Assembly (NCBI RefSeq): GCF_000422565.1
Contig: NZ_AUMA01000003.1
Location: 1-64,000, forward strand
DNA: 64,000 nt
Reading direction: 5' to 3'
Source: Desulfovibrio aminophilus DSM 12254
Lineage (GTDB): Bacteria > Desulfobacterota > Desulfovibrionia > Desulfovibrionales > Desulfovibrionaceae
The notes beneath the pieces are model-generated. The model was given only the letters and a program-made list of their open reading frames with translations. It was not told where the DNA came from and did no database searches. Each line of letters begins with the position of its first letter. The stretch's first letter is position 1. Of this stretch, positions 13,005-27,659 are shown one piece after another. The position numbers and the translations under genes are program-made.

Positions 13005-13354
13005 ATTCGCTTGGCGGTTTCGTCCGGGATGATGGTCGAGCGCGTCAGGCGGCCTTGGGCGTGGAGCCGCAACACGCCCTCCACCGGCCCGATGACGTCG
13101 TCGATGACCTGCACGGATTTCCAGGTCAGGTAGAGGGATATTTCCTCGTCCACCGCTCCGCAGATCACCGCGCCGACTCCTTCGGCCTGGGCGATGCGGC
13201 AGATTTCCTTGTCCGAGGGCTTGGCCAGCACGAGGTTCTTGCGCGAGAGCGGGCGACCCTTGTCGTCGAGCTGCACGATGAGCACTTCCAGACACTGGTC
13301 CAGGCGGGCCGCGACGTCGTTGTCGCGGATGGCGATCAGGAATTTGGGCTTCAC
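12974..13354 (-). CDS. NifX/NafY-like (dinitrogenase FeMo-cofactor type) protein
   Basis: This 126-residue single-domain alpha/beta protein starts KFLIAIRDNDVAARLDQCLE and continues with ICRIAQAEGVGAVICGAVDEE. This plan matches the NifX/NifB-C-terminal/MTH1175 superfamily, which binds iron-molybdenum cofactor precursors in nitrogen fixers; in sulfate reducers stand-alone members have unknown roles. It overlaps the end of the sigma-54 activator by 4 bases (ATGA), so the two are co-translated. Its stop codon is inside the palindromic terminator. Family assignment is moderate because no metal-binding motif is diagnostic. Confidence 0.6.
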   Translation of the reverse strand: MKPKFLIAIRDNDVAARLDQCLEVLIVQLDDKGRPLSRKNLVLAKPSDKEICRIAQAEGVGAVICGAVDEEISLYLTWKSVQVIDDVIGPVEGVLRLHAQGRLTRSTIIPDETAKRMVQNVSNETF

Positions 13355-14736
13355 GGCTTCTTCTCCCCGGCGAAGCCGTGGCTCTTCAGCTTGCGCCAGA
13401 AGGTCGTGCGCGAAAGGCCCAGGGCTTGGGCCGCCTTGCCCTTGCGGCCCCCGGCCTCCAGCAGGGCCTTGAGCATCCGGCCGCGCTCCAATTCGGCGTA
13501 GTCGGCCTGGGGCGCGCCGTGTTGGGGCTGCTCCGGCTCGGCGGCGCGGGCCTCATCCGGGGCGGGCGCCTGGGGCTTCAGGTAGGCCGGCAGGTCCGAG
13601 GCCGTGATCTGTTCGCCCCGGCACATGGTGCAGGCGTACTCCACGATGTTGCGCAGCTCGCGCACATTGCCCGGATAGGGGTGACCCATGAGCGTGGCCA
13701 GGGCCCGTTCGTCCAGCCCCAGCACGTTTTTGCCCAATTGAGCCGAGCAGACGTTGAGGAAGTGGTCCAGCAGCAGGCGCACGTCCACGCCCCGGTCGCG
13801 CAGCGGCGGCAGGTGGAGGCGGATGACATTGAGCCGGAACATGAGATCCTGGCGGAAGCGTCCGGCGGCCACGGCGGCCTCCAGGTCGTGATGCGTGGCC
13901 GCGATGAGCCGCACGTTGGTCACCACGCCCGACGTGCCGCCCAGGGGGTAGACCACGCGGTCGTCCAGGAAACTCAGGAGCTTCACCTGCAGCGGCAGGG
14001 GCAGGTCGCCCACCTCGGTGAGGAAGAGCGTGCCGCCCTCGGCCAGCTGGATGCGGCCCGGCTTGTCCTTCACCGCGCCGGTGAAGGCTCCTTTGCGATG
14101 ACCGAAAAGTTCGCTCTCCAGCAGGGATTCCGGCAGGGCTCCGCAATTCACCTTGATGAACGGGCCCTTGGAGCGGGGCGAGGCCTGGTGGATGGCCTCG
14201 GCCAGCACGTCCTTGCCCGTGCCGGTCTCGCCGGTGATGAGCAGGGAGGAGTCGGTCTGGGCCACGGCGGGCAGGGTTTCGAACAGGCGCTCCATGGCCG
14301 GGGAACGGCCGATGATGCGTGAAAAGCTCATGGGCCCGCCTTCCAGGGCCGGGCGGATGCCGCCGGGTCGCTCCTCCAGGGTTTCAAGGTAGAAGGCGGG
14401 CGCGCCGGTGTCGTCGGGCACGGCGGACAGACTCAGGCGCACCGGCAGCCGTCTTCGGTCGCGGTTGATCACGTCGCCTTCCAGAGACAGGGGCTTGTCC
14501 TGATTGCCGGCCGCGGCCAGGGGGCAGTCGTCCAGGCAGACGCTGCAGCGCAACACGCAGTCGCAGCGCAGGCCCAGGGCCTCGTCGCGGGAGAAGCCCG
14601 TGAGAGCCTCCATGGCGCGGTTGAGGAAGAGGACGCGGCGTCCCGGGGTGATCACGGCCGTGGCGAAGGGCAGCTTGTCCAGCAGCGTGTCCGCGCCCAA
14701 GGCCGCCATGTGGTGGATGCCCTTCCAGAGTCGCAC
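13351..14736 (-). CDS. Sigma-54-dependent activator (PAS, AAA+, Fis-type HTH)
   Basis: The domains, in order, are PAS (about 15-110, with five cysteines: CDCVLRCSVCLDDCP), AAA+ (about 140-370) and a Fis-type helix-turn-helix (GRKGKAAQALGLSRTTFWRKL). Walker A is GETGTGKD and the sigma-54 contact loop GAFTGA is intact. Walker B reads LFLTEVGDLP instead of the usual LFLDE, so Asp is replaced by Thr (codon 14019-14017). The Cys-rich PAS suggests a metal or Fe-S redox sensor. The annotated start is GTG 14736; the ATG ten codons on (MAALGAD) is an alternative. Likely target: the DASS permease promoter downstream. Confidence 0.88.
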   Translation of the reverse strand: MRLWKGIHHMAALGADTLLDKLPFATAVITPGRRVLFLNRAMEALTGFSRDEALGLRCDCVLRCSVCLDDCPLAAAGNQDKPLSLEGDVINRDRRRLPVRLSLSAVPDDTGAPAFYLETLEERPGGIRPALEGGPMSFSRIIGRSPAMERLFETLPAVAQTDSSLLITGETGTGKDVLAEAIHQASPRSKGPFIKVNCGALPESLLESELFGHRKGAFTGAVKDKPGRIQLAEGGTLFLTEVGDLPLPLQVKLLSFLDDRVVYPLGGTSGVVTNVRLIAATHHDLEAAVAAGRFRQDLMFRLNVIRLHLPPLRDRGVDVRLLLDHFLNVCSAQLGKNVLGLDERALATLMGHPYPGNVRELRNIVEYACTMCRGEQITASDLPAYLKPQAPAPDEARAAEPEQPQHGAPQADYAELERGRMLKALLEAGGRKGKAAQALGLSRTTFWRKLKSHGFAGEKKP

Positions 14737-14806: not shown

Positions 14807-15418
14807 TCAGGCCGGAACGGGCGTGGGCTGCTGGTTGAGGAGCAGGAGGCGCGGGCCGTCCGATCGCCAATCGAGCACGTTGCGGCAGCCGGAATCCTGG
14901 CCCAGGCGGAAAACGTGTCCTAGGGGCATGTCGAGAATCCGGCAGAGCAGCGCCCGGTTGGTTCCGGCGTGGGCGACCACGAGCGCGTGGCCCTCGGCCC
15001 GTTCCAGCCGCGGAACCAGCGCGGCCCAGGCCCTGTCCTGGAGGTTCTGGAAGCTCTCGCCTCCGGGCGGCCGGAAAGCGGCCAGGTCGCGGCCCCGGGC
15101 TTCGTACTGGCCCGGGAAGCGCTGCCGCACCTCCTCGCGGCTCAGGCCGTCCCACTGGCCCAGGTCGATCTCACCCAGGCCCGGCAGGGGCTCGATAGTG
15201 ACTTTTCGGCCCGCGAGGATGATCGACGCGGTTTCGCGGCAGCGGCCCAGGTCCGAGCACCAGGCCGCCTGGAAGGGAACGTCCGCCAGGGCCTCGCGCC
15301 AGAACCGGGCCTGGGCCCGGCCTTTGGCCGAGAGGGGAACTTCGCGGCGGCCCAGGAAGCGCCAGGGCGTTTCCGGCTCCACCGCGCCGTGGCGCAGGAG
15401 GTGAACGGTCAGTCCCAC
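14807..15418 (-). CDS. Histidine phosphatase (CobC/phosphoglycerate-mutase-like)
   Basis: The 203 residues begin VHLLRHGAVEPETPWRFLGR, with the catalytic RHG, and include CSDLGRCRETASII, GEIDLGQWDGLSREE and the second His in VVAHAGTNRALL. This matches the branch containing alpha-ribazole phosphatase (CobC) and broad phosphatases. It is the final gene of the aldehyde oxidoreductase run, overlapping the NTP-transferase/HD gene by 10 bases. Since that gene carries a nucleotidyltransferase, the phosphatase may act on the same small molecule; a cobalamin role is less supported because no cob genes are nearby. Confidence 0.8.
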   Translation of the reverse strand: MGLTVHLLRHGAVEPETPWRFLGRREVPLSAKGRAQARFWREALADVPFQAAWCSDLGRCRETASIILAGRKVTIEPLPGLGEIDLGQWDGLSREEVRQRFPGQYEARGRDLAAFRPPGGESFQNLQDRAWAALVPRLERAEGHALVVAHAGTNRALLCRILDMPLGHVFRLGQDSGCRNVLDWRSDGPRLLLLNQQPTPVPA

Positions 15419-16527
15419 GGTCCCTCTCCGTCCAGGATGGCGTCCAGGCTCCGGCCCGCGACGCGCTCCACCAGGGCCCGCATGGCCAGGGCGTGTTCCC
15501 GCCGCCGTGTGATGGCTGTCACGGCCTCGGGGTTCCCGGCGAAGCGGTCCAGCTTTTCCTGGAAGCGCTGCTCCACGTTCACGCGCTCCTGGCCGCGTAC
15601 GAGCTTGTCGGCCAGGTAGACGAGTTCGCGCTCCCCGGGCCGTTCCATCCCGGCGGGGTCGATGTCTCGGTGCGCGGCCACGATTTCGGCCACGGGCGCG
15701 TAGCCGAGGTCGGCCAGAAGCATGCCGCCCTCCTTCTCGTGCTCCTGCGAGCCCTTGGCGATGTCGTGAAGCAGGGCCGCCACCTCCAGCAGTTCGAGGT
15801 CCAGGGACAGCCCGGCCGCCGCGAGCGCCCGGCCCAAGGCCAGGGCCGCGCGGGCCACGCCCTGGGCATGGGCCAGGCCGCGTTCCCCGGCCCGATGCAG
15901 CCGGAGCAGGGCCAGGGCTTCGGCCCGGGTGGGCACGTCCCGCCGTTCCCAGCGGCGCAGCGCCTCGGCATAGGCCTCGGGCGTGTCCAGGTCGAAGAGC
16001 ACGCCCGCGTCGGCCACCTCCAGCGGCTCCACATCCAGGGTGGCCAGGGCCCCGCGAAGGCCGCCCGCGCCGGTCCAGGCCAGGGCCGCGTCCACGGCCG
16101 CCGGGCGGAGCAGGGGCGGGTGCCCTGGCTCGCCGTCGAAGGCGGGGACCAGCACCTGGGCCGGGGACTCCGGCAGCCGTTTAATGAGGCGGCGCACCGT
16201 GGCGGGCCGGACCAGGGGAATGTCCACCGGCAGGACGAACACTCCGTCCAGGCCCGGCGGCAGGGCCTCCAGGCCCGTCTGGACCGAGGAGAACATGCCG
16301 GTCTCGAAATCCGGGTTATGCACGCTCCGCAGTCCCAGGCGTCCGGCCTCCCCGCGCACCTCGTCGGCGCGGTGCCCGGTCACGGCCAGAATGTCCGCGA
16401 TTCCGGCGGCGTGGAAGAGCCGGGCCGCGCGGCCCAGGAGGCTCGCGTCCCCCAGGGGCAGCAAGGGCTTGAGGCGGCCCATGCGCGAGGACAGCCCGGC
16501 GGCCAGGACCAGGGCGGCCAGGCGCAT
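15409..16527 (-). CDS. MobA-like NTP-transferase fused to HD phosphohydrolase
   Basis: In this 372-residue protein, residues about 1-190 are a nucleotidyltransferase of the MobA/MocA type: LVLAAGLSSRMGRLKPLLPL (nucleotide loop), VTGHRADEV and VLPVDIPLV (metal Asp). Residues about 210-370 are an HD domain with LLHDIAKGSQEHEKEGG and AHRDID. MocA-type enzymes attach CMP to molybdopterin for Mop-family enzymes, which fits the operon. The HD part could hydrolyse a nucleotide by-product. This matches what I remember as the DVU_1551-type NTP transferase. The start TGATG overlaps the xdhC-like stop. Confidence 0.85.
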   Translation of the reverse strand: MRLAALVLAAGLSSRMGRLKPLLPLGDASLLGRAARLFHAAGIADILAVTGHRADEVRGEAGRLGLRSVHNPDFETGMFSSVQTGLEALPPGLDGVFVLPVDIPLVRPATVRRLIKRLPESPAQVLVPAFDGEPGHPPLLRPAAVDAALAWTGAGGLRGALATLDVEPLEVADAGVLFDLDTPEAYAEALRRWERRDVPTRAEALALLRLHRAGERGLAHAQGVARAALALGRALAAAGLSLDLELLEVAALLHDIAKGSQEHEKEGGMLLADLGYAPVAEIVAAHRDIDPAGMERPGERELVYLADKLVRGQERVNVEQRFQEKLDRFAGNPEAVTAITRRREHALAMRALVERVAGRSLDAILDGEGPWD

Positions 16528-17552
16528 CAGGCCTCCCTCCGCGCGGCCCGGGCCTGGATGAGCTCGGCCACGATGCTCACGGCGATCTCCTCCGGGGTCT
16601 CGGCCTCGATGGACAGGCCGATGGGGCAGTGCACACGCTCCAGGTCGGCGAGGGTGAAGCCCTCGGACAGGAGCTGGTCGTACACGGCCCGGCGCTTGCG
16701 GCGCGAGCCGATCATGCCGATGTAGCCCGCCGGGGTGCGCAGGGCCTGTCCGAGCGCGGTCTTGTCGAAGAGGTGTCCGCGCGTGACGATGACCACCGAG
16801 GCGTCCGGCCCGGGCGCGCGGCCCGTGAAGCAGTTCTCGAAGCCGTCCAGCACGGCGATCTCCCTGGCCCAGGGAAAGCGTTCGCGGTTGGCGAACTCCG
16901 GCCGGTCGTCCAGGACCGTGACCTGGAAGCCCGCCAGGGCCGCCACCTGGGCCGTTGGCCGGGAGACGTGTCCCGCGCCGACGATGAGCAGGACGGAGGG
17001 CGCGGCCCAGGGTTCCAGGAACCAGGCCGCGTCCCCGCATTCCAGCAGCACCGGGGCCAGGATGCCCGACCCGCGCTCGCGGGCTTGGCGCGCGGCGTCT
17101 TCGGGCAGGGCCGCGCCCCGCGTCCCGTCCGGGAGGAGCAGGCTGCGCGCGCCGCCGTTGTCGGCGGTGAGCAGCAGGCAGCGTTCGCCCCGCGCCAGAT
17201 GCGCCTCCAGTTCCGTGAACAGCGGGGCGTCCTCCGGCGCGATGCGTTCCAGGAAGACCCGCAGCCTGCCGCCGCAGACCATGTCCGCCCCGGCGGCCAT
17301 CTCGCCGGTGAGCTCGAAGGAGAGCAGCGCGGGCGCACCGCCGGTCGTGACCTCGCGCATGGCCTCCAGGACCTGGGCCTCCACCAGCCCGCCGCCCACG
17401 GTTCCGGCCATGCCGCCGTCCGCGAAGCGGAGCATCTTGGAGCCCGCCGAACGGGGCGTGGACCCCTCATGCGTGGCGATGGTGGCCGAAACCACGGGTT
17501 CTCCGGCCGCGAGCCGCTGGTTCAGAATACTCAAAAGTCGTTGCATATGCAT
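16527..17552 (-). CDS. XdhC-family molybdenum hydroxylase maturation factor
   Basis: The 341 residues hold an XdhC/CoxI N-terminal domain (SATIATHEGSTPRSAGSKML, GTVGGGLVEA) and a C-terminal Rossmann domain (LLIVGAGHVSRPTAQVAALA, VTRGHLFDK, IGMIGSRRKR). XdhC proteins bind molybdenum cofactor, promote its sulfuration and hand it to xanthine/aldehyde-oxidase family enzymes. The start chosen is ATG 17552, 6 bases after AAAGGA, which overlaps the AMP-ligase gene by 22 bases. Its job here is almost certainly maturation of the Mop oxidoreductase in the same operon. Confidence 0.9.
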   Translation of the reverse strand: MHMQRLLSILNQRLAAGEPVVSATIATHEGSTPRSAGSKMLRFADGGMAGTVGGGLVEAQVLEAMREVTTGGAPALLSFELTGEMAAGADMVCGGRLRVFLERIAPEDAPLFTELEAHLARGERCLLLTADNGGARSLLLPDGTRGAALPEDAARQARERGSGILAPVLLECGDAAWFLEPWAAPSVLLIVGAGHVSRPTAQVAALAGFQVTVLDDRPEFANRERFPWAREIAVLDGFENCFTGRAPGPDASVVIVTRGHLFDKTALGQALRTPAGYIGMIGSRRKRRAVYDQLLSEGFTLADLERVHCPIGLSIEAETPEEIAVSIVAELIQARAARREA

Positions 17553-18598
17553 CTTTTTCCTTTGCGCGGGTGGACCGTGCGCCACCCGGCGCCATGCGGT
17601 TCGATGCGCCCCGGCACGGTCTCCAGCCGGGGCAGGGGGCAGCCGCAGGGACAGGGCCCGGGCAGCAGCCGCGCCGCGTCGCCGGTGCGGTAGCGGATGA
17701 GCGGCATGCCGCGCCGGTTCAGGGTGCTCAGCACCAGCTCGCCCGGTTCGCCAAGCGGCAGGGGCGCGGCCGTGAGCGGATCGATCACTTCCAGGAAGAG
17801 GTCGGCCATGCGCGGATGATAGCCCGCATGGGCCGCGCATTCCACCCCTCCACCCCAGCCCGTCTCGGTCATGCCCCAGTGGTCGAAGACCTCGCAGCCC
17901 CAGGCGCGTTCCAGGTCCGCGCGCAGACCCGCGTCCAGGGGTTCGGCGCTGGAGAGCAGGGCCGCGAGCCGCGCCCGGGCGGCCCGGGAGAATTCGGCGT
18001 CATCGAGGAGTCCCCGCAGTTGGCTGGGCGCGGCCACCATGCGCGTCACGCCCTCGCGTTTCATGAGCCGGACCAGATCCCCGGCGGTCCAGGACTCCGG
18101 CGGAAGCACGGCCCGGGCCGCGATGCGCGGCAGGGCGCGGGCCAGCAGGTCGGCCACCCCGTCCGGGCGGCGGCCCGGCAGGAGCACGAGGACCGCGTCC
18201 CCGGCTCCGGCGAGGGTGGACATGCCCACGGCGAAGAAATCCAGCGTGGCCTCGATGTCCTCCGGGGTGAAGAAGAGGCGCTTGGGCGGGCCGCTGGTGC
18301 CTGAGGTTTCCAGCGTGACCACCCGGGCGATTTCGCCGCCGGAGACGCAGAGCATGGCCTCGCCGCGCGCGGCCAGGTCCTCCGCCGTGGTCAGGGGCAG
18401 GGCGGCCATGTCCGCGCGCCGGGCCGGGAACCCGGGCGGCAGGTCGGCCAGCCGTTGCCGGTGAAAGGGGCTGTGGCGCGCGGCGTGGGCCAGCGTTCGC
18501 CGCAAGGCTTCCAATTGCCGGGCCTCCACGGCATCGGGGGCGAGGTCCGGGAGGCCCAGGCGGGCGGCGATCCAGGCGTCCAAAGGCGTGCGCCGCAT
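17531..18598 (-). CDS. AMP-dependent CoA ligase-like protein (PaaK type)
   Basis: This 355-residue protein belongs to the short phenylacetate-CoA ligase-like branch. It has the P-loop TLETSGTSGPPKRLFFT, the HWGMTETGWGG adenylate motif and RYRTGDAARL. The C-terminal lid domain is short and ends in a Cys pair cluster (GPCPCGCPLP). Such enzymes adenylate carboxylates and may form CoA thioesters. In an aldehyde oxidoreductase operon it could activate the carboxylic acid product, though cofactor modification is equally possible. Its start overlaps the radical SAM stop as TGATG. It resembles what I recall as the DVU_1553 family. Confidence 0.82.
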   Translation of the reverse strand: MRRTPLDAWIAARLGLPDLAPDAVEARQLEALRRTLAHAARHSPFHRQRLADLPPGFPARRADMAALPLTTAEDLAARGEAMLCVSGGEIARVVTLETSGTSGPPKRLFFTPEDIEATLDFFAVGMSTLAGAGDAVLVLLPGRRPDGVADLLARALPRIAARAVLPPESWTAGDLVRLMKREGVTRMVAAPSQLRGLLDDAEFSRAARARLAALLSSAEPLDAGLRADLERAWGCEVFDHWGMTETGWGGGVECAAHAGYHPRMADLFLEVIDPLTAAPLPLGEPGELVLSTLNRRGMPLIRYRTGDAARLLPGPCPCGCPLPRLETVPGRIEPHGAGWRTVHPRKGKRCICNDF

Positions 18599-19935
18599 CA
18601 GCAGCGCCCCCGGTAGAGCGTCCGGCCCTCGGCCGAGGTGAGGTTGTAGAGGCAGAAGGGGATGCGCCGCCCGTCGGCCTCGGCCACGTGGATGCAGCAG
18701 CCGCGCACCCGCTCCAGATCCACGGTCCAGGCGTCCTGGAAGGCCATGCAGGAGACGCTGAAGCGGTCGCGGGTGGAGAATCCGGCCAGGAAGCGTTCGA
18801 AGTCGTCGGCCCCGGTCCGGGGTGCGCGGGGCTGGTCCGGCGCGGCCCACTGGCGGGCCGTGATCGAGCGAGACTGCATCGCGCCTTCGCGGGCTTCCAG
18901 GGGCTGGCCCGGGGAGCAGCAGGAGCCGCCCTGGGACAAAGGGATGAGCCGCCCACCTTTCAACCGGAACTGGGCGCTGAAAGAACACATCTCGTGTTCG
19001 CAGCAGGGCGGGTGGAAGTCCTCGGCCCGGAGCAGACCGTGGGACTGGGCCACCAGGGCCGTGAGCACCTCGGGCAGGGTCAGGCGCGGCCGTTCCGGGG
19101 TCCAGGGGAAGCGGCCGAAGCTGGCGGCGGGCTGGAAGTGCACGCCCCGCACCGTTGGGCTGTTGGACAGTCCCAGGTCTAGGATGTGCCCCAACTCCGC
19201 GTCGTTGATTCCCGGGACCAAGGTGGGCACCAGGATCACGCCCAGCCCGGCCTCGGCGCAGGCATCGATGGCCTGGAGCTTTTCCGCCAGCAACGGACGG
19301 CCGCGCAGGGCGGCGCAGGCGCTGTCGGAACCGTCGAACTGGAGGAAGACCGAGTCCAGCCCGGCGTCGGCCAGGGCGCGGGCGAATTCCGGCTCCCGGG
19401 CCAGGCGCAGGCCGTTGCTGTTGATCTGGACCAGGGCGAAGTCCGCGCTCCGGGCGGCGGCCACGATGGCGGGCAGGTCGTCGCGGGTGGCGGGTTCGCC
19501 GCCGGAAATCTGGACATTGCAACGCCCGGCCACCCGGCGCAGGGCCGTCAGCCGGGCGGCCAGGGCCTCCAGCGTGGGCTCCGGCGCGTTCGCCGCGCCC
19601 GAGGACGCGAAGCAGACCGGGCAGCCCAGGTCGCAGGCCTGGGTGATTTCCACCAGGGCCGTGCAGGTGTGCTGGCCGTGTTCCGGGCAGAGTCCGCAAT
19701 CCAGGGGGCAGCCTTGGTTCGCGGGCGTCTGCGGGCGTTCCGGCCGGGAGGGCGTCTTGGGCCGGCGCCAGCGCTCCAGGTCCGGCTTGCCGCGCCAGAC
19801 CGCGACCTTGAATTCGCCGTGATCCGGGCAGGTCCGGGCGAGGAACACCGTGCCGTCCTCCAGGATGCGCACGGCGGGCAGGCGCTTCAGGCAGACCGGA
19901 CAGAGGCTTTCCGTGCGGCCGAGGATTTCGGCCAT
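18598..19935 (-). CDS. Radical SAM protein with Tes/MJ0619-like N-terminal Cys region
   Basis: The 445 residues begin with a Cys-rich N-terminal region (CPVCLKRLPA, CPDHGEF, then CPLDCGLCPEHGQHTC) that leads into the SAM cluster motif CDLGCPVCF (CX3CX2C) and the glycine motif ISGGEPATR. This N-terminal arrangement is characteristic of the Tes/MJ0619-like branch of radical SAM enzymes. A C-terminal Cys cluster (HPPCCEHEMCSF) follows. The start ATG 19935 overlaps the preceding stop (TGATG); ATG 19938 is too close to the GGAGG. Its substrate is unknown. It probably works with the adjacent methyltransferase and C_GCAxxG protein. Confidence 0.85.
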   Translation of the reverse strand: MAEILGRTESLCPVCLKRLPAVRILEDGTVFLARTCPDHGEFKVAVWRGKPDLERWRRPKTPSRPERPQTPANQGCPLDCGLCPEHGQHTCTALVEITQACDLGCPVCFASSGAANAPEPTLEALAARLTALRRVAGRCNVQISGGEPATRDDLPAIVAAARSADFALVQINSNGLRLAREPEFARALADAGLDSVFLQFDGSDSACAALRGRPLLAEKLQAIDACAEAGLGVILVPTLVPGINDAELGHILDLGLSNSPTVRGVHFQPAASFGRFPWTPERPRLTLPEVLTALVAQSHGLLRAEDFHPPCCEHEMCSFSAQFRLKGGRLIPLSQGGSCCSPGQPLEAREGAMQSRSITARQWAAPDQPRAPRTGADDFERFLAGFSTRDRFSVSCMAFQDAWTVDLERVRGCCIHVAEADGRRIPFCLYNLTSAEGRTLYRGRC

Positions 19936-20387
19936 CATTCCTCCCTGGGCACGGCCGGGTCCAGGCCCTGTTCGGTCAGAAGCAGGAGGATGCGGGCCCA
20001 GGCGTCGGCCAGGAGTTGGCCGCAGCGGGAGACGTCCGGCTTGCCGCCATCGTCGCCCAGGATGGCCGCGCAGGTGATGCCGCCGTATTGCGGCACGGCG
20101 CGCTCGGTGAACCAGTCCACGAAGGTGGCGACCGCCAGTTCGGCCTGCTCCAGGGGCGCTTCGTCGTCCGATCCCTTGCCCAGGTAGAGTCCAAGCACGC
20201 AGCAGCCGCCGCTGAGGATGCCGCAGGCGCCGCCGCTCTGGCCCATGCCGTGGCACAGGCCGCTCAGGGAGCGGATGAGGTCCGGGTTTTCGCGGCCCTG
20301 GGCGCGCAGGGCCAGGAGGCCGAGAATTTGGCTGCAGCAGTATCCTTTGCCCGCCAGGGGCAGGATGTCGAGAAGGATGTCGCTCAT
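19935..20387 (-). CDS. C_GCAxxG_C_C-family redox-type protein
   Basis: The 150 residues show the spaced cysteine pattern of this family: GYCCSQIL, then GLCHGMGQSGGACGILSGGCCVLGLYLG, later GITCAAILG and SRCGQLL. The middle motif GGACGILSGG replaces the usual GCAxxG. Members are thought to bind metal or Fe-S groups; their biochemistry is poorly known. It overlaps both neighbours and corresponds to what I recall as the DVU_1555 type tied to aldehyde oxidoreductase loci. No signal peptide is visible. Confidence 0.8.
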   Translation of the reverse strand: MSDILLDILPLAGKGYCCSQILGLLALRAQGRENPDLIRSLSGLCHGMGQSGGACGILSGGCCVLGLYLGKGSDDEAPLEQAELAVATFVDWFTERAVPQYGGITCAAILGDDGGKPDVSRCGQLLADAWARILLLLTEQGLDPAVPREE

Positions 20388-21079
20388 GAGGCCTCCTTTG
20401 CGGCGATGATGAGGCAGTAGCCCAGGTCACGGGGATCGCGGCGGCCGCATCCGCCGCCTCCGGTCAGGTTCCGCAGGGCGTCCAGGGAGCCGTGTTGGAA
20501 GATGAGCCGTCCGGCCAGTTCGCTCAGGGCCCGGCTGTGGTCCTCCACGTGGAGCGGCCGCAGGCCGTGCCGCCGCAGGAGGCCTTCCATGTCCTCCAGG
20601 GGGCGGGCTCCGGCGGCGCAGCCCGCGATGCCGCCCGCCGCGCCGGGGCGGCGGACGTAGAGGTCGCTGAGAAGCAGGCGGCCGCCGGAGCGCAGCGTCC
20701 GGGCCATCTCGGCCAGGACCGGGCCGGGGTCGGCCAGGGTCGAGAGCACGCATTCGCAGCACAGGCCGTCCAGGCCGCCGTCGGCCAGGGGCAGGGCCTC
20801 CACCCGCGCCCGCAGCAGGGGCGTTCCGGGCTGTTCGGCGCGGGCCCTGGCGAGGAATTCCGCCGAGGCGTCCAGGCCCAGGGCGCGCAGGCCCCGGCCG
20901 GTGAGCAGGCCGAGGGTCGCGCCCGGGCCGCAGCCCAGGTCCGTCACCCGGTCCCCGGGGCCGAAGCCGCACAAATCCAGGCCGCGCGCGGTGAGTTCCG
21001 CGCCTCCGGGACGCAGGGCCGGGCCGCTGGCCTCCTGGAAGGCCGGGTGTTCGTACAGGGGCCGGACGACCTCGCTCAC
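20384..21079 (-). CDS. SAM-dependent class I methyltransferase
   Basis: This 231-residue protein has the SAM-binding motif VTDLGCGPGATLGLL, the acidic loop LGLDASAEFL, a post-I motif DGLCCECVLSTL and SGGRLLLSDLYV. It resembles the ubiquinone/arsenite methyltransferase class, but the CCECVL stretch has an unusual Cys pair. The C-terminal part contains GGGGCGRRDPRDLGY. It starts at GTG 21079, overlapping the dicluster protein stop (GTGA). The acceptor is unknown; the radical SAM enzyme two genes on suggests a shared small-molecule or cofactor substrate. Confidence 0.82.
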   Translation of the reverse strand: MSEVVRPLYEHPAFQEASGPALRPGGAELTARGLDLCGFGPGDRVTDLGCGPGATLGLLTGRGLRALGLDASAEFLARARAEQPGTPLLRARVEALPLADGGLDGLCCECVLSTLADPGPVLAEMARTLRSGGRLLLSDLYVRRPGAAGGIAGCAAGARPLEDMEGLLRRHGLRPLHVEDHSRALSELAGRLIFQHGSLDALRNLTGGGGCGRRDPRDLGYCLIIAAKEAS

Positions 21080-23580
21080 TTGTCCTCCAGCAGGCGCTCC
21101 ACCTCGGCCATGCGGCCCAGGGCCAGGGATTCGGGCACGAGGCAGAGTCCGCACTCCGGGCAGGCCAGGAGCGAGATGTTGAAGGAACTGCCGAGATAGG
21201 TCGCCTCCACCGGCCGGGGCTCCAGGGCGTCGTGGCCGCAGGACCATCGACCCGAGTCCGGGGTGTAGGTCTGGTCCACCTTGAGCCCGGCCGCACCCGC
21301 GCCCGGCCGCACCTCCATGCGGTGGCGCCAGGCTCCCAGGACGCGGAACGCCTCGCCCTCGCGGGCGTATTCCAGCCAGTAGGTCACGTTGCGCGGCCGG
21401 TGGGGCGCGAGGAGGCGTTCGCCCCCGGTCTCGCGGAACACGCGTCCCGAGGCCTCGGCGTGGGCCAGCGCGCGGCGGACGTCCTCCACCAGGATGTGCC
21501 GCTCCTCCATGCGGGCCAGGACCTCGGGCGCGATGCGCAGTTCCGGGCCGGGTTCCGCCTCCCCGGCTTGGCCGAGGTATTCCCGGGCCAGTTCTCGCCG
21601 CAGCCCGGCGCGTGCCGCGTGGCGGGCCGAGAACCCCGGGGCGGGTGCGGCCGCCGGGTCATCCGGTCCGCCGGGGAAGATGAAATCCAGGACGTGGTAA
21701 GCCCGCTTGCCCTCGGCGGCCAGCCGGTCACGGCACATGGCGCAGGAGGCCACGTAATCCAAGGGGCTCGCGGCCGCGCGCCGGGCGGCCACCTCGTGGG
21801 CCAGGTCCGGGTCCACGTTGGACATGAGCCCGCCGTAGCCGCAGCATTCGGTGAGGCGGCCGGACAGGGGCAGTTCCTCGCGGGCCACGCCGCAACGGTC
21901 CAGCAGGCCGCGCACGGCCGCGCGGGCGGTCTCGTCGTGGCGCGTTGTGCAGGGGTCGTGCACGGCCAGAGGCGCGTTCGGCGCGGGCGCGCCCGGCGTT
22001 TCTGACAGGCCGGTTTCGGCCAGGATCTCCCAGAGCGAAACCGCGGGCAGGTCCGGCGAGCGGCGACGGAGGATGTCCAGGCAGGAGGAGCAGGCCGCCA
22101 CGATGCGCGGCCGCCCCAGGCCTTCCCACTGGGCCCGGAACGCGACCTGGGCCTCGGTGAAGAGGTCCTCGCGCCCGGCCCAGTGGGCCGGGATGCCGCA
22201 GCAGCGCAGCATGAGCCCCACGCCGCCGGAGAGTGCGGCGCGAAGGTGTTCGAAGACCGAGCGCACGTGGTGCGGGTGCGAGGCCGCCAGCTGGCAGCCG
22301 GGAAAGAAGACGTGGGCGCACGCGCCGTCCGGCCCGGGCAGGGTCAGGGCGAAGTCCGGGCCGTTGTTGAAGGCCATGTCCTCTAGGGCGAATTCGTGGG
22401 CCGAGGGCGGCATCTTGCCCCGGGCCACCATGTCGCGCCGGGCCTCCAGACAGAGGTCGGCCATGGCGAAGCCCTCGGGGCAGACCTCCGCGCACAGGCC
22501 GCAGAGGCTGCAGGAATTGATCAGGCGGTTGGCCTCGTGCAGGCCCTTGACGATGGCCGCGTTGTTGTAGACCTGGCGGGCGTATTTCTTGGGGTAGCCT
22601 TTGTGGCGTTCGAGATAGGCGCAGACCCGCACGCACTCCATGCACTGGCAGTTCAGGCAACGCGCGGCCTCCTGGGTGGCCTCCTCCGGGGCGTAGCCGT
22701 TATCGGGAGCCGCCGGGGCAACCCGGGACAGGGGCGCGATCCCGGCGAGGTTCGTGAATAGGCGCGTCTCGCAGGGGCCTTCTTTCTCGCGGGCGGCGGT
22801 GAGCGAGACGCCGCTCATGTGCCGGTCCATGGACGAGGCGGCGCGGCGGCCGTCGGCGGCCTGGTCGATGAAAGACACGCCGCTGGGCGCGGAAAACCCG
22901 CCCAGAAAGAAGCCGGAACGATCCCCGGCCAGGGTCACGGGATCCACGGCCGCGCGGTCGTCACGGGCCAGGCCGGGAACCTCGGAGAGGTCCGCGAACA
23001 CGGCCGCGAATTCGGACAGGGCTTGGTCCAGCAAGACCGCGTCCAGGGATTGGCCGGCGCGGACCTCGGGCTTGAGGGCCAGGACGCGGGCGAGTTCCTC
23101 CTCCATGGCGGCCTTGGGGAGCCGGGATTCGGGCAGGTCGCGCAGACGGCCGCCGAGGGCGTCGTCGGCGACGAGGAAGGTCACGCCGTAGCCCTTGCGC
23201 AACAGGTCCCAGGCGCAGACCAGGGCGGCGAGGCCGCCGCCGAGTACTGCGGCGCGCTTGCTCCGGGAGGGCAGGACCGTGGGTTTGGCCCCGGCGGGAG
23301 CGGAGCCCACGCAGGCTCGCTCCAGGTCGCCGACGGCCAGGGCGTCGCCCGCCTCGGCGCGCTTGCAGACCGTTTCGCAAGGATGCTCGCAGAGCCTGCC
23401 CAGGACGCCGGACAGGGGCATGCTCCGCTCCAACACCTTGCGGGCCCCGGCCGGGTCGCCCTTGGCCATGCGTTCGAGAAAGGCGCGCACGTCCACGCGC
23501 AGCGGGCAGGCCGCCTGGCACCAGGGCAGCTCTTCCTGGATGCAGCGCTGTTCCCAGGCCCTCAGTTCCTGTTGCTCCAT
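21076..23580 (-). CDS. FAD/NAD-type oxidoreductase with Fe-S and CCG domains, fused redox tail
   Basis: The 834 residues carry several parts. The N-terminal Fe-S linker of the GltD/DPYD type (CQAACPLRVDVRAF, CEHPCETVCKR) is followed by a degenerate nucleotide fold (VLGGGLAALVCAWDLL). Next come two ferredoxin motifs (CLNCQCMECVRVC, CSLCGLCAEVCPEGF) and HdrD-like CCG blocks (FFPGCQLAASHP, ECCGYGG). The last 130 or so residues end in SFNISLLACPECGLCLVPES, which looks like a separate small redox protein (DVU_1557 type as I recall) fused on. It probably passes electrons from Mop to a carrier. It starts 82 bases after mop. Confidence 0.82.
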   Translation of the reverse strand: MEQQELRAWEQRCIQEELPWCQAACPLRVDVRAFLERMAKGDPAGARKVLERSMPLSGVLGRLCEHPCETVCKRAEAGDALAVGDLERACVGSAPAGAKPTVLPSRSKRAAVLGGGLAALVCAWDLLRKGYGVTFLVADDALGGRLRDLPESRLPKAAMEEELARVLALKPEVRAGQSLDAVLLDQALSEFAAVFADLSEVPGLARDDRAAVDPVTLAGDRSGFFLGGFSAPSGVSFIDQAADGRRAASSMDRHMSGVSLTAAREKEGPCETRLFTNLAGIAPLSRVAPAAPDNGYAPEEATQEAARCLNCQCMECVRVCAYLERHKGYPKKYARQVYNNAAIVKGLHEANRLINSCSLCGLCAEVCPEGFAMADLCLEARRDMVARGKMPPSAHEFALEDMAFNNGPDFALTLPGPDGACAHVFFPGCQLAASHPHHVRSVFEHLRAALSGGVGLMLRCCGIPAHWAGREDLFTEAQVAFRAQWEGLGRPRIVAACSSCLDILRRRSPDLPAVSLWEILAETGLSETPGAPAPNAPLAVHDPCTTRHDETARAAVRGLLDRCGVAREELPLSGRLTECCGYGGLMSNVDPDLAHEVAARRAAASPLDYVASCAMCRDRLAAEGKRAYHVLDFIFPGGPDDPAAAPAPGFSARHAARAGLRRELAREYLGQAGEAEPGPELRIAPEVLARMEERHILVEDVRRALAHAEASGRVFRETGGERLLAPHRPRNVTYWLEYAREGEAFRVLGAWRHRMEVRPGAGAAGLKVDQTYTPDSGRWSCGHDALEPRPVEATYLGSSFNISLLACPECGLCLVPESLALGRMAEVERLLEDK

Positions 23581-23662
23581 GTTCTCACCTCGCGGGAAAG
23601 AAAGGGGCGGACGCGGACACTTTCCGCGCCCGCCCCGATGGCGTCAAGAGGCCGTCAGACGT

Positions 23663-26383
23663 CTACTTCGTCTTGAGCCCGGCCAGGACCTTCTCGGGCA
23701 GGGCCGGGAGCTTGGTGATGCGCACGCCGCAGGCGTTGTAGATGGCGTTGATCACCGAGGCGTGCGGGCAGGTCAGCGGGATCTCGCCCGCGCCGGAGGC
23801 CCCGAAGGGGCCGTCCGGGCGCTCGGACTCCACGTAGATGACCTCCATGTTGTCCGGGATCTGCTTGATGTACGGGAAACCGGCGCCCGCCAGGGTGGAG
23901 TGCTTCTTGATGTCCTCATAGTCTTCGGTCAGGGCCAGGCCGATGCCCTGGGCCAGGCCGCCGTACATCTGGCCGTCCACCACGAGGCGGTTGTTCACCT
24001 TGCCGATGTCGGCCACCATGGTGATCTTCTCCATGGTGGTCTTGCCCGTGGCCAACTCCACGGCCACCTCGGACATGAACAGGCCGTACATGTAGCAGCA
24101 GAAGGGCTTGCCCTGGCCGTTCTCGTCGCAGTTGGTGGCCGGGGCGGTCCACTTGCCGCTGATTTTGGTGGGGATCTTCTCGGCCACCATCTCGGCATGG
24201 GTCCGGTAGCTCTTGTCGGCCTTGCGCATGGAGGCCAGCAGGAGTTCACAGCCGGCCTTGATGGCGTTGCCGGTCATGACCTGGGAGCGGCTGCCGCCGG
24301 CCGGGCCGGAGTTGGGGGCCTTGCTCGTGTCGTTCATGACCAGGCGGATCTTGTCCGGGGACAGGCCCAGGGGACGCAGGGCCTCGTGGGCCGTGCCCAG
24401 GGAACCGGCGTCCGCGCCCTGGCCGTGGTCCTCCCAGCAGGAGTACACGGTGACCCCGTTGTCCTCGTTCAGTTCCACGAAGACCTCGGAGGAGTCCGGG
24501 CCGTCCAGGCCCGCGCCGTACACGCCCACGCAGACGCCCACGCCGCGCTTGACCTCGGCCGTGGAGTTCGCCTTGGCCCGCTTGAGGGCCTCCTGGTACT
24601 TGGGCCGCAGGATGTCGATCATCTCGGGCAGGCTGTAGACCTCGGGGTCCTGGCCCGTGGGCGTGGTCGAGCCCTTGCGGTAGACGTTCTTGTAGCGCAG
24701 CTCCAGGGGATCCATGCCGAGCTTCTCGGCCAGTTCGTCCATGAGCAACTCGGAGCCGAACTCGCTCTCCGGCCCGCCGTAGCCGCGGAAGGCCGCGCCC
24801 CAGGCGTGGTTCGTGCAGACCGTGCGGCCCTCGCCCCGGATGCTCGGGATGTCGTAGCCCGCGCCGATGAACTGGGCTCCGCGCAGGGTCAGCAGGTCGC
24901 CGAACTCGGAGTAGGGGCCGTGGTCCACGGTCCAGTCGGTCTCCATGGCCAGGAGCTTGCCGTCCTTCTCGGCGGCGAAGCGCACGGTGGTGAACTGGGG
25001 CGAACGCTTGCCGGTGTAGGTCTGCTGCTGGTGATAGGTGTAGTTCAGGTACACCGGGCGTCCGGTGGCCATGGCGGCCACGCCCAGCAGGGCCTCCATG
25101 GTCGGGCTGAACTTGTAGCCGAAGGTGCCGCCCGTGGGGTTCTGGACCATGACGATCTTGTCCGCCTCCAGCCCGATGCCGGGAGCGATCATATACAGGT
25201 GCAGGTGCAGGCCGATGGACTTGGAATGGATGACCAACTGGCCCTGCTCGTTCATGTAGGCGCACCCGACGTCCGGTTCGATGGGCAGGTGCGGCTGACG
25301 GGAGGTGTAGAAGTCGCCCTCCACCACCACGGGAGCCTTGTCGAACAGGGGCTTGGTCTCCGGCCCCTTGGCGATCTTCTGGATGTAGTAGACGTTGGGC
25401 GTGCCGGGGTGGATTTCGATGGCGTCCTCGGCCATGGCCGCGGGCGCGCTCATGTATTCGGGCAGTTGCTCCAGGTCCACCTTGACCTTCTCGGCGGCCG
25501 CCTTGGCCTGCTTCTCGGTCTCGGCGCAGACGATGGCGATGGCGTCGCCGTACTGGAAGACCTTCTCGTCACAGAGGATGGGCCGGTCCCAGCCGTCGCC
25601 CTTGTTGGTGGGGAAGGTGATCAGGCCGGTGATCCGGTTCTTGCCCTTGACGTTCTTGTGGGTCACGACCTTGTACACGCCGGGCATCTTCTCGGCCTCG
25701 GAGGTATCGATGCCCTTGATGTTGGCGTGGGAGACCGTGGCCTGGACCAGGGCCAGGTGCAGGGTGCCCTCGGGCATCTTCAGGCCGAGGTCCGCGCCGA
25801 AGTCCCAGGTGCCGGTGACCTTGGCCACGGCGCTGGGGCGGGGCAGGTTCGTGCCCCAGACACGGCCGTCGGCGGGCAGCTTGTAGCGCACGTCGGCCGC
25901 GCGCATCTCGCCGCGCAGTATCTTGGCCGCGTCCATGACCGCGTCGGTGAGCTGCTTGTAGCCGGTGCAGCGGCAGGCGTTGCGATGCTTCTGGAACCAG
26001 TCGCGGACGTCCTCGCGGCTGGGCCGGGAGTTTTCGTCCAGCAGGGCCTTGGCCGAGACGATGAAGCCCGGGGTGCAGAAGCCGCATTGCGCTCCGCCGT
26101 GAGCCATCCAGGCCTCCTGGATGGGATGGAGGTTGTCGGGCGTGCCGATGCCCTCCACTGTGGTCACGCCGGCGCCGTCGGCCACGCGCTTCATCTTGGT
26201 CACGCACGATCGCACGAGCTTGCCGTCCAGGATCACGCTGCATGCGCCGCACTGGCCCTGGCCGCAGCCGACCTTGACCCCGGTGAGCAGAAGCTGCTTG
26301 CGGAGCACGTCCGCGAGGCTCTCCTCGGGATCGACAACCAGGGTTCTCGGAACCCCGTTGACGGTCAGGTTCAACTTGATCAT
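23663..26383 (-). CDS. mop: Molybdopterin aldehyde oxidoreductase (Mop)
   Basis: The 906 residues are nearly the length of the Desulfovibrio gigas enzyme. Two [2Fe-2S] domains come first (CGQGQCGACSV and CGFCTPG with CRCTGY). The molybdenum domains follow, with GTNLPRPSAVAKVTG, GGTFGYKFSP, RGYGGPESEFGSELL and, near the end, GASGAGEIPL, which holds the catalytic Glu. It oxidises aldehydes to acids using molybdopterin cytosine dinucleotide. The ATG at 26383 follows AAGGAGG. The surrounding genes supply cofactor maturation and electron acceptors. All expected cluster ligands are present. Confidence 0.95.
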   Translation of the reverse strand: MIKLNLTVNGVPRTLVVDPEESLADVLRKQLLLTGVKVGCGQGQCGACSVILDGKLVRSCVTKMKRVADGAGVTTVEGIGTPDNLHPIQEAWMAHGGAQCGFCTPGFIVSAKALLDENSRPSREDVRDWFQKHRNACRCTGYKQLTDAVMDAAKILRGEMRAADVRYKLPADGRVWGTNLPRPSAVAKVTGTWDFGADLGLKMPEGTLHLALVQATVSHANIKGIDTSEAEKMPGVYKVVTHKNVKGKNRITGLITFPTNKGDGWDRPILCDEKVFQYGDAIAIVCAETEKQAKAAAEKVKVDLEQLPEYMSAPAAMAEDAIEIHPGTPNVYYIQKIAKGPETKPLFDKAPVVVEGDFYTSRQPHLPIEPDVGCAYMNEQGQLVIHSKSIGLHLHLYMIAPGIGLEADKIVMVQNPTGGTFGYKFSPTMEALLGVAAMATGRPVYLNYTYHQQQTYTGKRSPQFTTVRFAAEKDGKLLAMETDWTVDHGPYSEFGDLLTLRGAQFIGAGYDIPSIRGEGRTVCTNHAWGAAFRGYGGPESEFGSELLMDELAEKLGMDPLELRYKNVYRKGSTTPTGQDPEVYSLPEMIDILRPKYQEALKRAKANSTAEVKRGVGVCVGVYGAGLDGPDSSEVFVELNEDNGVTVYSCWEDHGQGADAGSLGTAHEALRPLGLSPDKIRLVMNDTSKAPNSGPAGGSRSQVMTGNAIKAGCELLLASMRKADKSYRTHAEMVAEKIPTKISGKWTAPATNCDENGQGKPFCCYMYGLFMSEVAVELATGKTTMEKITMVADIGKVNNRLVVDGQMYGGLAQGIGLALTEDYEDIKKHSTLAGAGFPYIKQIPDNMEVIYVESERPDGPFGASGAGEIPLTCPHASVINAIYNACGVRITKLPALPEKVLAGLKTK

Positions 26384-26460
26384 TCCCTGCCTCCTTGCCG
26401 TTTGAGGGTCTTCAGTGTCTTGTTTCGCTCGCGACGCGGAGCGTTCCGCCTCGTCGGCGG

Positions 26461-27501
26461 TCAACGCCCCTTGCCGAAGGGGCAAATGGGGAAACGGCAC
26501 TGCGCGCAGCCGGAGCAGAAGCCGCCGTGACCCAGGTCCACGATGTCCTTCTTTGTCACGGTGTCCCCGGCCAGCAGCCGGGGCACGATGAGATCGAAGA
26601 TGCTGGCCTTGTGGTACATGACGCAGCCCGGCAGCCCGAGCACCGGCACCTCGCCGATGAAGGCCAGCAGAAACATGGCTCCGGGCAGGACCGGCGCTCC
26701 GTAGGTGACGACCCGGGCCCCTGCGGAACGGATGGCCGAGGGGGTGCGGTCGTCGGGGTCCACGGACATGCCGCCGGTGGCCACGATCATCTCCGCGCCC
26801 GCGTCGAGCAACTCCCGGATGGCCCCGGCGGTCATGGATTCGTCGTCCGAGACCAGAATTTGGCGGAAGACCTCGCTGCCGAGGTCATGGAATTTTTCGC
26901 GCACCACCGGGCCGAAACCGTCCTGGATGCGGCCGTGGTAGACCTCGCTGCCCGTGGTCACCATGCCCACGCGCAGGCAGCGGAATGCCTTCACCCGGAT
27001 GATCGAGCCCCGGGCGCAGACCGACTCGGCGCGTTTGAGCTTTTCCTCTTCGATGACCAGGGGCACCACGCGGGTTCCGGCCACGGCCTGGCCCGCGCGC
27101 ACCCGCTGGTTGCCGTGCAGGGTGGCGAAGACCATGTCGTCCACGGAGTTCAGCTCGCGCAGGGCGTCCACGTCCACCGAGAGCAGACCATCGTGGGCGG
27201 CAGTGAGGGTGATCTTGCCTTCAGATGGTTCGGACAGGTTCAGCCCGGGGCCGGCGGCCGCGACGGCGATGCGGCGGGCGGCTTCATCCTCGTGAACGAA
27301 ACCCTGTTGGAGGTCGAAGACGTAGATGTTGTCTTTGCCGATCTGGAGCAGCCCGGGGATGTCCTCTGGGCGGATGACGTGGCCTCTGCGGAAGGCCGGG
27401 CCCTTGCTGCGGCCCGGGACGATACGGGTGAGGTCGTGGCCCAAAACGGTGCCGACGGCTTCCTGGACCGGGATTGTCTTCATGCCCTTTGTGGAGCGCA
27501 T
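26461..27501 (-). CDS. Molybdopterin-binding (MoeA/MogA-like) protein with Cys tail
   Basis: The 346-residue protein has the molybdopterin-binding fold in its middle: VGMVTTGSEVYHGRIQD, IVATGGMSVDPDDRTPSAIR and GVPVLGLPGC-type text (EVPVLGLPGCVMYHK). It ends in a Cys-rich tail, GGFCSGCAQCRFPICPFG, which could hold an Fe-S or zinc site. The start is ATG 27501, behind GGAGGA; the extra ten codons upstream lack a ribosome site. It leads the Mop operon and lies 77 bases before mop, so it probably inserts or delivers the molybdenum cofactor. Confidence 0.85.
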   Translation of the reverse strand: MRSTKGMKTIPVQEAVGTVLGHDLTRIVPGRSKGPAFRRGHVIRPEDIPGLLQIGKDNIYVFDLQQGFVHEDEAARRIAVAAAGPGLNLSEPSEGKITLTAAHDGLLSVDVDALRELNSVDDMVFATLHGNQRVRAGQAVAGTRVVPLVIEEEKLKRAESVCARGSIIRVKAFRCLRVGMVTTGSEVYHGRIQDGFGPVVREKFHDLGSEVFRQILVSDDESMTAGAIRELLDAGAEMIVATGGMSVDPDDRTPSAIRSAGARVVTYGAPVLPGAMFLLAFIGEVPVLGLPGCVMYHKASIFDLIVPRLLAGDTVTKKDIVDLGHGGFCSGCAQCRFPICPFGKGR

Positions 27502-27641: not shown

Positions 27642-27659
27642 TATGTTAAAGTGAACATA
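27642..27659. promoter_or_regulatory. Inverted repeat upstream of the Mop operon
   Basis: TATGTT-AAAGTG-AACATA is a perfect 6-6-6 inverted repeat about 140 bases upstream of the first Mop-operon start codon, in the AT-rich part of the 227-base gap. It is a candidate operator for a dimeric regulator. No clear -10/-35 or -24/-12 could be fixed nearby. Confidence 0.4.

Follow-up and report, generated by a model that had tools for sequence, protein, structure and literature searches.

For nearly four decades the aldehyde oxidoreductase (Mop) of Desulfovibrio gigas has been studied as a model of molybdenum enzymes (PMC10223205). It accepts a wide range of aldehydes (PMC3877041). In the structures its molybdenum is held by the usual pyranopterin cytidine dinucleotide (PMC3877041, PMC10223205). 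At 1.28 Å an oxo group is found where xanthine oxidase has a sulfido, and the enzyme is active without the sulfido (PMC3877041). Mop has no flavin domain, unlike its relatives. Flavodoxin has been used as the acceptor in vitro, standing in for a flavin partner, and the accessible sections of that work do not discuss a partner encoded in an operon (PMC10223205). Here we describe a ten-gene operon that encodes an orthologue of this enzyme in the sulfate reducer Desulfovibrio aminophilus DSM 12254. The window, meaning the whole stretch of DNA that was analysed, comprises 64,000 nucleotides (positions 1 to 64,000 of contig NZ_AUMA01000003.1). The gene adjoining mop encodes a flavin and iron-sulfur (Fe-S) protein of 834 amino acids (aa), which its sequence marks as the likely electron acceptor of Mop.

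A related gene neighbourhood, DVU_1551-DVU_1559 of Desulfovibrio vulgaris, has already been recognised by NCBI curators, without an assigned function. A literature search on DVU1551-1559 found DVU1559 in proteomics tables. Haft and Tolstoy (2025, in mSystems) are reportedly the cited source of TrsS, the family of the radical S-adenosylmethionine (SAM) enzyme. TrsS is included in a published list of selenoprotein families (PMC13188914). All models of the neighbourhood (NF045645, NF045646 and NF045663-NF045669) scored above cut-off in the window, where the matches are clustered and their order is conserved. The window differs from the D. vulgaris neighbourhood in its truncated ligase and in a fusion, shared within its genus, that joins the DVU_1557 protein to the flavin/Fe-S protein.

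The operon lies on the minus strand at 14807-27501, from the ATG of the MoeA-like gene at 27501 to the stop of the phosphatase gene at 14807 (Table 1). Genes are transcribed in the order MoeA-like, Mop, flavin/Fe-S/CCG protein, methyltransferase, C_GCAxxG_C_C protein, TrsS, PaaK-like ligase, XdhC, MobA-like protein with an HD domain, and histidine phosphatase. Most of them overlap: gaps of 77 and 82 base pairs (bp) are followed by overlaps of 4, 4, 1, 1, 22, 1 and 10 bp. Third-position guanine plus cytosine content is 0.87-0.95 in all ten genes, as coding sequence should show. 8/10 proteins exceeded the cut-off of NCBIfam equivalog or exception models, while the MoeA-like protein and the CobC-like phosphatase reached no NCBIfam equivalog cut-off. 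A first-pass annotation had proposed this operon and the identities of its genes. The operon is real, its order being conserved in dozens of genomes and hence not due to chance, and the identities were correct, eight of them with models above cut-off. We also agree with its view that known Mop chemistry offers no role for TrsS, the methyltransferase, the C_GCAxxG protein or the ligase. The 834-aa protein, the HD domain on the nucleoside triphosphate (NTP) transferase and the missing C-terminal domain of the ligase go beyond its text. New here are the loss of a domain from the Mop-linked flavoprotein, the ArsM cysteines of the methyltransferase, the Tes ligands of TrsS and the truncation of the ligase.

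The N-terminal half of the 834-aa protein resembles NfnA/GltD and is followed by additional Fe-S motifs, a part like HdrB and a tail. NfnA residues 287-450 have no counterpart in it; the binding domain for nicotinamide adenine dinucleotide (phosphate) (NAD(P)), about 160 residues, is absent. Although NF045663 bears the name pyridine nucleotide-disulfide oxidoreductase, the window protein has no Pyr_redox_2 match. The shortened flavin half without the NAD(P) domain was found in every Mop-linked locus examined. In the Mop-less setting the flavin half is either missing or complete; the complete form, which includes Pyr_redox_2, occurs in locus L064 and in a second module of L021 that is of the Mop-less type. 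The simplest reading of this loss in Mop-linked loci is that Mop feeds the flavin instead of NAD(P)H.

The HdrB-like part carries two complete CCG motifs (CX~30CCX~35CX2C), C429-C460C461-C497xxC500 and C544-C579C580-C613xxC616. Both are complete in 51/52 aligned proteins (the exception is L091) and in 9/9 Mop-less-type homologues, and two unrelated Fe-S control proteins did not have both. In the AlphaFold model (predicted local distance difference score, pLDDT, 92.5), residues 421-648 match HdrB chains with Z of about 17, and the fold is that of HdrB, whose relatives include LutA and EtfD. The model matches NfnABC/StnABC chains with Z of about 31, showing the same NAD(P)-domain gap; the VIA-align rows for this model cover mostly residues 15-293, so the absence of other families from them means nothing. 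Unlike HdrB, the protein is fused to an NfnA/GltD-like flavin domain that lacks the NAD(P) domain. EtfD misses one cysteine and has a non-catalytic cluster that only transfers electrons, whereas Hdr proteins with all cysteines cleave disulfides (PMC13083937). By this standard (PMC13083937) the window protein, with both motifs complete, is of the catalytic kind. Its motifs and modelled fold indicate that it probably reduces a disulfide.

The distribution of Mop and TrsS was then compared. A locus survey with one genome per species gave 37 loci, and regions of further genomes were added later. The full order (moeA, mop, flavoprotein, DVU_1557, methyltransferase, C_GCAxxG, TrsS, ligase, XdhC, NTP transferase, phosphatase) recurs in Desulfovibrionaceae, Desulfoluna, Desulfopila and Geobacter, with moeA relocated in the Desulfopila version. 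A partial operon occurs in a Clostridia bin and in Anaerolineae. Among 395 genomes of the phylum sample, Mop was found in 35, TrsS in 47 and both in 34; in the family sample of 199 genomes, where a stretch of 206 residues from D. gigas Mop served to find the enzyme, the numbers were 132, 131 and 127, the genomes in these counts being related and the counts therefore not independent. The lone phylum-sample genome with Mop and without TrsS has its Mop genes cut by contig ends, and the five such genomes of the family sample are drafts of at least 180 contigs each. As a control, a 158-genome sample was used. TrsS was over cut-off in 11/11 of its genomes with Mop over cut-off, and most of the 45 genomes with only weaker xanthine-oxidase-family relatives had no TrsS over cut-off. 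The tie to TrsS is not shown by other xanthine-oxidase-family enzymes.

TrsS need not lie in the Mop operon: the two are apart in two Geobacter genomes (L091 and L093 versus L036 and L033). Wherever a single Mop gene without operon neighbours was seen, the genome had Trs genes as well, which suits a service that is usable in trans. Mop seems to need the Trs genes. The reverse does not hold, as TrsS was found without Mop in 13/47 phylum-sample genomes, ten of them above the TrsS cut-off. Two of these ten (G253, G358) may be incomplete, and the other eight span three families. In a quick tree, nine Mop-less TrsS copies form one group that excludes both the Mop-linked copies and archaeal Tes; L021 is tagged Mop-less in this tree, and its first TrsS is actually part of a Mop operon, L095, located on the same contig. 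Strict co-occurrence, which the first-pass annotation named as a check, thus stands in one direction, since nearly all Mop genomes have TrsS, and fails in the other. Co-occurrence is one-sided, with a separate TrsS clade that does without Mop. A core of Fe-S/CCG protein, methyltransferase and TrsS is common to the Mop-linked and Mop-less settings, with the ligase in most loci. Because this core occurs without Mop, the Trs genes are not private tools of Mop. In L051 a gene for a tungsten-type aldehyde ferredoxin oxidoreductase (L051:6156-8114) is divergent from the TrsS cluster, and the Mop of that genome is on another contig.

The neighbours of the core are varied. In the Mop-less clade, HgdB/BcrB-like subunits, akin to double-cubane reductases, stand beside it with a BadF-type ATPase in L021, L023, L041 and L063. 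This part of the Mop-less clade resembles double-cubane-cluster reductase and 2-hydroxyacyl-coenzyme A (CoA) dehydratase systems in its subunits and activase, whereas no double-cubane-type reductase genes were seen in the window operon. NuoE/NuoF-like genes adjoin the core in L023, and a MaoC-like gene is found in L023 and L040. In L064 a fumarate-reductase-like flavoprotein is present, and a corrinoid protein and a RACo-type activator come after the core (L064:15023-17528). TRAP-like transporters, recognised by eye, lie beside the Mop-less clusters of L044, L045 and L064. NifS/SclA-like genes lie within the cluster in L036 and L061. The close genomes of L064 and L065 differ in the flavin/Fe-S/CCG protein, which has 831 aa and a full GltD-like half in the one (L064:12503-14998) and 366 aa without that half in the other (L065:12138-13238), with the same first residues. 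Either the half was gained or lost recently, or one of the assemblies is wrong.

TrsS shares its fold with the tetraether lipid synthase Tes (GDGT-MAS, 7TOL, MJ0619), on which its model superposes with a TM score of 0.82. The ligand motifs of the rubredoxin iron, the N-terminal cluster and the radical SAM cluster are kept, and the labile methionine of Tes (Met439) is kept as M397, as are two conserved cysteines in the C-terminal cluster. Ligand residues in common with archaeal Tes members are C12 C15 C36 H39, C76 C80 C83 H86, C101 C105 C108 and M397 C413 C428. TrsS falls under the cut-off of the Tes model NF045702 (314.3 versus 450 bits). C91, N172 and H266 are specific to TrsS, in contrast to Tes, and are conserved in both TrsS clades; these residues suggest that the TrsS substrate may be different from that of Tes and more polar. 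No in-frame stop that would indicate selenocysteine was reported among the TrsS matches. Some TrsS frames are about 200-300 residues longer than usual, as if they held an insertion (L024:9977-11860, and about 675-745 aa in G478, G480, G493 and G504).

The methyltransferase scored far under the cut-off of the ArsM model NF008823 (56.5 versus 263 bits). It nevertheless keeps the active-site cysteine pair of ArsM, with which C110 and C154 align (NCVxN and GCxxGA motifs), and both are conserved in at least 93% of its relatives. In ArsM this pair is the metalloid site. An ArsM-like arsenite methyltransferase is encoded elsewhere in the same genome (L112, G000:C6:141886-142644). The codon for its second active-site cysteine is replaced by an in-frame TGA, so that it is probably a selenoprotein.

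The adenylation core of the ligase is intact. The chain stops after the hinge, and the C-terminal domain is absent in the window and in most Desulfovibrionaceae, while D. gigas and most other lineages have a full-length ligase, mostly with a lysine near the end. Against the PaaK phenylacetate-CoA ligase model TIGR02155 the window protein scored 89.7 bits, the cut-off being 646, and the domain with the catalytic lysine is the absent one. In the C_GCAxxG protein C18, C55, C106 and C122 are conserved. Taken together, the CCG and C_GCAxxG proteins, the ArsM cysteines, the Tes ligands and the NifS/SclA-like neighbours point to thiol, selenol or similar soft-atom chemistry.

We propose, at a probability of roughly 0.4, that aldehyde oxidation by Mop is coupled to a dedicated disulfide-type reductase, and that the operon also holds maturation genes for Mop and, as a separable group, the Trs genes. 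Mop would oxidise the aldehyde to the acid, as is known for the D. gigas orthologue. Electrons would pass from its [2Fe-2S] clusters to the flavin adenine dinucleotide (FAD) of the 834-aa protein, with Mop taking the place of NAD(P)H as the domain loss suggests. They would continue via [4Fe-4S] clusters to two HdrB-type noncubane sites, where motifs and fold suggest that a disulfide or soft-atom substrate may be reduced. TrsS, the ArsM-like methyltransferase and the ligase may make or maintain the reduced substrate, which could be a small thiol or selenol carrier or else a disulfide in a protein, for instance the C_GCAxxG or the DUF7479 protein; this is the weakest step. The MoeA-like, XdhC and MobA-like proteins would, judging from their families, mature the ordinary cofactor of Mop. 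Other redox enzymes may feed or drain the shared core in the sister systems that lack Mop, and other electron inputs do lie beside it there, NuoE/NuoF in L023 and the complete GltD-type half in L064.

Several points weigh against this proposal. The support comes from sequence and model. CCG domains can also serve in plain electron transfer, and the conserved linkage of Mop and flavoprotein is no proof of electron transfer between them. The TRAP-like transporters of L044, L045 and L064 and the corrinoid protein and RACo of L064 better suit a degradation pathway. The truncated ligase of most Desulfovibrionaceae is hard to reconcile with a simple CoA-ligase step.

A pathway around the substrate is a serious rival. 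Mop would then be one biosynthetic or degradative step, its aldehyde or the resulting acid would be the intermediate, the ligase would activate the carboxylate, TrsS and the methyltransferase would act on the carbon skeleton, and no special redox carrier would be involved. The carbon-carbon-bond-forming Tes family, to which TrsS belongs, suits such a role. So do a PaaK-like ligase with an intact core that is full-length in most other lineages and D. gigas, the MaoC-like genes, the double-cubane-type subunits with their activase, and the transporters by some Mop-less clusters. However, Mop looks like a general enzyme, with its many aldehydes (PMC3877041) and the iron-alcohol-dehydrogenase-like genes seen by eye next to it in L012, L053 and L099, which makes a near-strict tie to TrsS odd, and the ligase is truncated in the window. 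We felt that this pathway is possible but doubtful. An organometalloid pathway, in which the methyltransferase cysteines bind arsenic, selenium or a similar atom and TrsS adds an organic group, would be analogous to ArsM and ArsS in arsenosugar synthesis. The conserved C110/C154 pair and the listed selenoprotein forms of TrsS (PMC13188914) fit this idea, but the methyltransferase scores far too low for ArsM, Tes was the nearest relative of TrsS in the searches made and no arsenic genes were seen in the operon. We regard it as improbable.

The remaining alternative places TrsS, the methyltransferase, the C_GCAxxG protein and the ligase in the maturation of Mop, as modifiers of its molybdenum cofactor or of a Mop residue. 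Their grouping with MoeA-, XdhC- and MobA-like genes and the near absence of Mop without TrsS would be explained. D. gigas argues otherwise. The window Mop, a single chain with two [2Fe-2S] domains and molybdenum domains and no FAD domain, belongs to NF045668, is about 70% identical to the D. gigas enzyme and is orthologous to the D. gigas and D. desulfuricans enzymes of known structure (1VLB, 1SIJ, 1DGJ). The genome taken as D. gigas, whose Mop is identical to 1SIJ across 206 compared residues, shares the operon from moeA to the phosphatase (L098); tblastn gave no match for the NTP transferase in it. Yet the 1.28 Å structure of D. gigas Mop shows the usual cofactor, with no sulfido in the equatorial position (PMC3877041). 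It is thus unlikely that TrsS or the methyltransferase alters the cofactor visibly, and we set aside the idea that Mop carries a modified form of it. As the core genes also occur without Mop, we give maturation by this set little chance. The undescribed cofactor suggested in the first-pass annotation is thus disfavoured for Mop's own molybdenum site, while another cofactor or carrier used with Mop stays preferred. Its assignment of XdhC, the MobA-type transferase and the molybdopterin-binding protein to cofactor maturation holds at the level of families. Sulfuration by XdhC does not follow, because the oxo form of D. gigas Mop is active (PMC3877041) and sulfuration is not required. The MobA-like protein is under the cut-off of the MocA cytidylyltransferase model TIGR03310 (125.2 versus 186 bits) and was assigned to NF045665 instead; its probable role is to convert the cofactor to the cytidine dinucleotide form.

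Table 1. Features of the Mop operon and its upstream region, by position in the window.
Feature	Position	Strand	Evidence
MoeA-like molybdopterin-binding protein, 346 aa, first gene	26461..27501	-	PF00994 77.8 bits; MoCF_biosynth domain only; C-terminal cysteine tail conserved
Mop, molybdenum aldehyde oxidoreductase, 906 aa	23663..26383	-	NF045668 1723.9 bits (cut-off 1100); orthologue of 1DGJ, 1SIJ/1VLB
Flavin/Fe-S/double-CCG protein, 834 aa, with fused DUF7479 (DVU_1557) tail	21076..23580	-	NF045663 987 bits (cut-off 530), NF045645
Class I SAM methyltransferase, 231 aa, DVU_1556 family	20384..21079	-	NF045667 224 bits (cut-off 155)
C_GCAxxG_C_C redox-type protein, 150 aa, DVU_1555 family	19935..20387	-	NF045669 174 bits (cut-off 103), PF09719
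TrsS, Tes-like radical SAM enzyme, 445 aa	18598..19935	-	NF045646 621.9 bits (cut-off 490)
PaaK-like adenosine monophosphate (AMP)-forming ligase, 355 aa, DVU_1553 family	17531..18598	-	NF045666 424 bits (cut-off 300)
XdhC-family maturation factor	16527..17552	-	NF045664 (XdhC_rel_AOR) 404.5 bits (cut-off 350); PF13478, PF02625
MobA/MocA-like NTP transferase with HD domain, DVU_1551 family	15409..16527	-	NF045665 429 bits (cut-off 315); PF12804 and PF01966
Histidine phosphatase, alpha-ribazole-phosphatase-like	14807..15418	-	PF00300; TIGR03162 149.4 bits, under the cut-off of 162.9
Perfect palindrome TATGTT-N6-AACATA (TATGTTCACTTTAACATA) upstream of the operon	27642..27659	.	Possible operator

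The palindrome upstream of the operon has one further site in the whole genome, next to peroxiredoxin- and thioredoxin-like genes, and the genome-wide search revealed no regulon. A similar palindrome lies upstream of moeA in L015, L056 and L077, and the D. gigas counterpart is TATGCTTTAGCAAGCATA. Downstream of the operon, translations read by eye indicate a DASS-type anion transporter and a PAS/sigma-54-type regulator on the minus strand (11279-12751 and 13351-14736). At 27729-29702, also on the minus strand, is an odd fusion that encodes a membrane protein with NapH/NosR-like Fe-S domains and a histidine-kinase-like ATPase domain. An apparent ApbE-like gene (29887-30921) lies upstream of it.

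The loss of the NAD(P) domain names a concrete acceptor for Mop, and uncharacterised gene families become a testable redox system common to many anaerobes. A wider and rather unlikely extension is that anaerobic bacteria have an undescribed electron carrier, a thiol or selenol, which is made by the Trs genes. The flavin/Fe-S/CCG protein would be its disulfide reductase, driven by aldehyde through Mop, and in the Mop-less clade a carrier of this kind would work with NADH or double-cubane reductases driven by adenosine triphosphate (ATP). If true, bacteria would possess a counterpart to the coenzyme M / coenzyme B heterodisulfide system.

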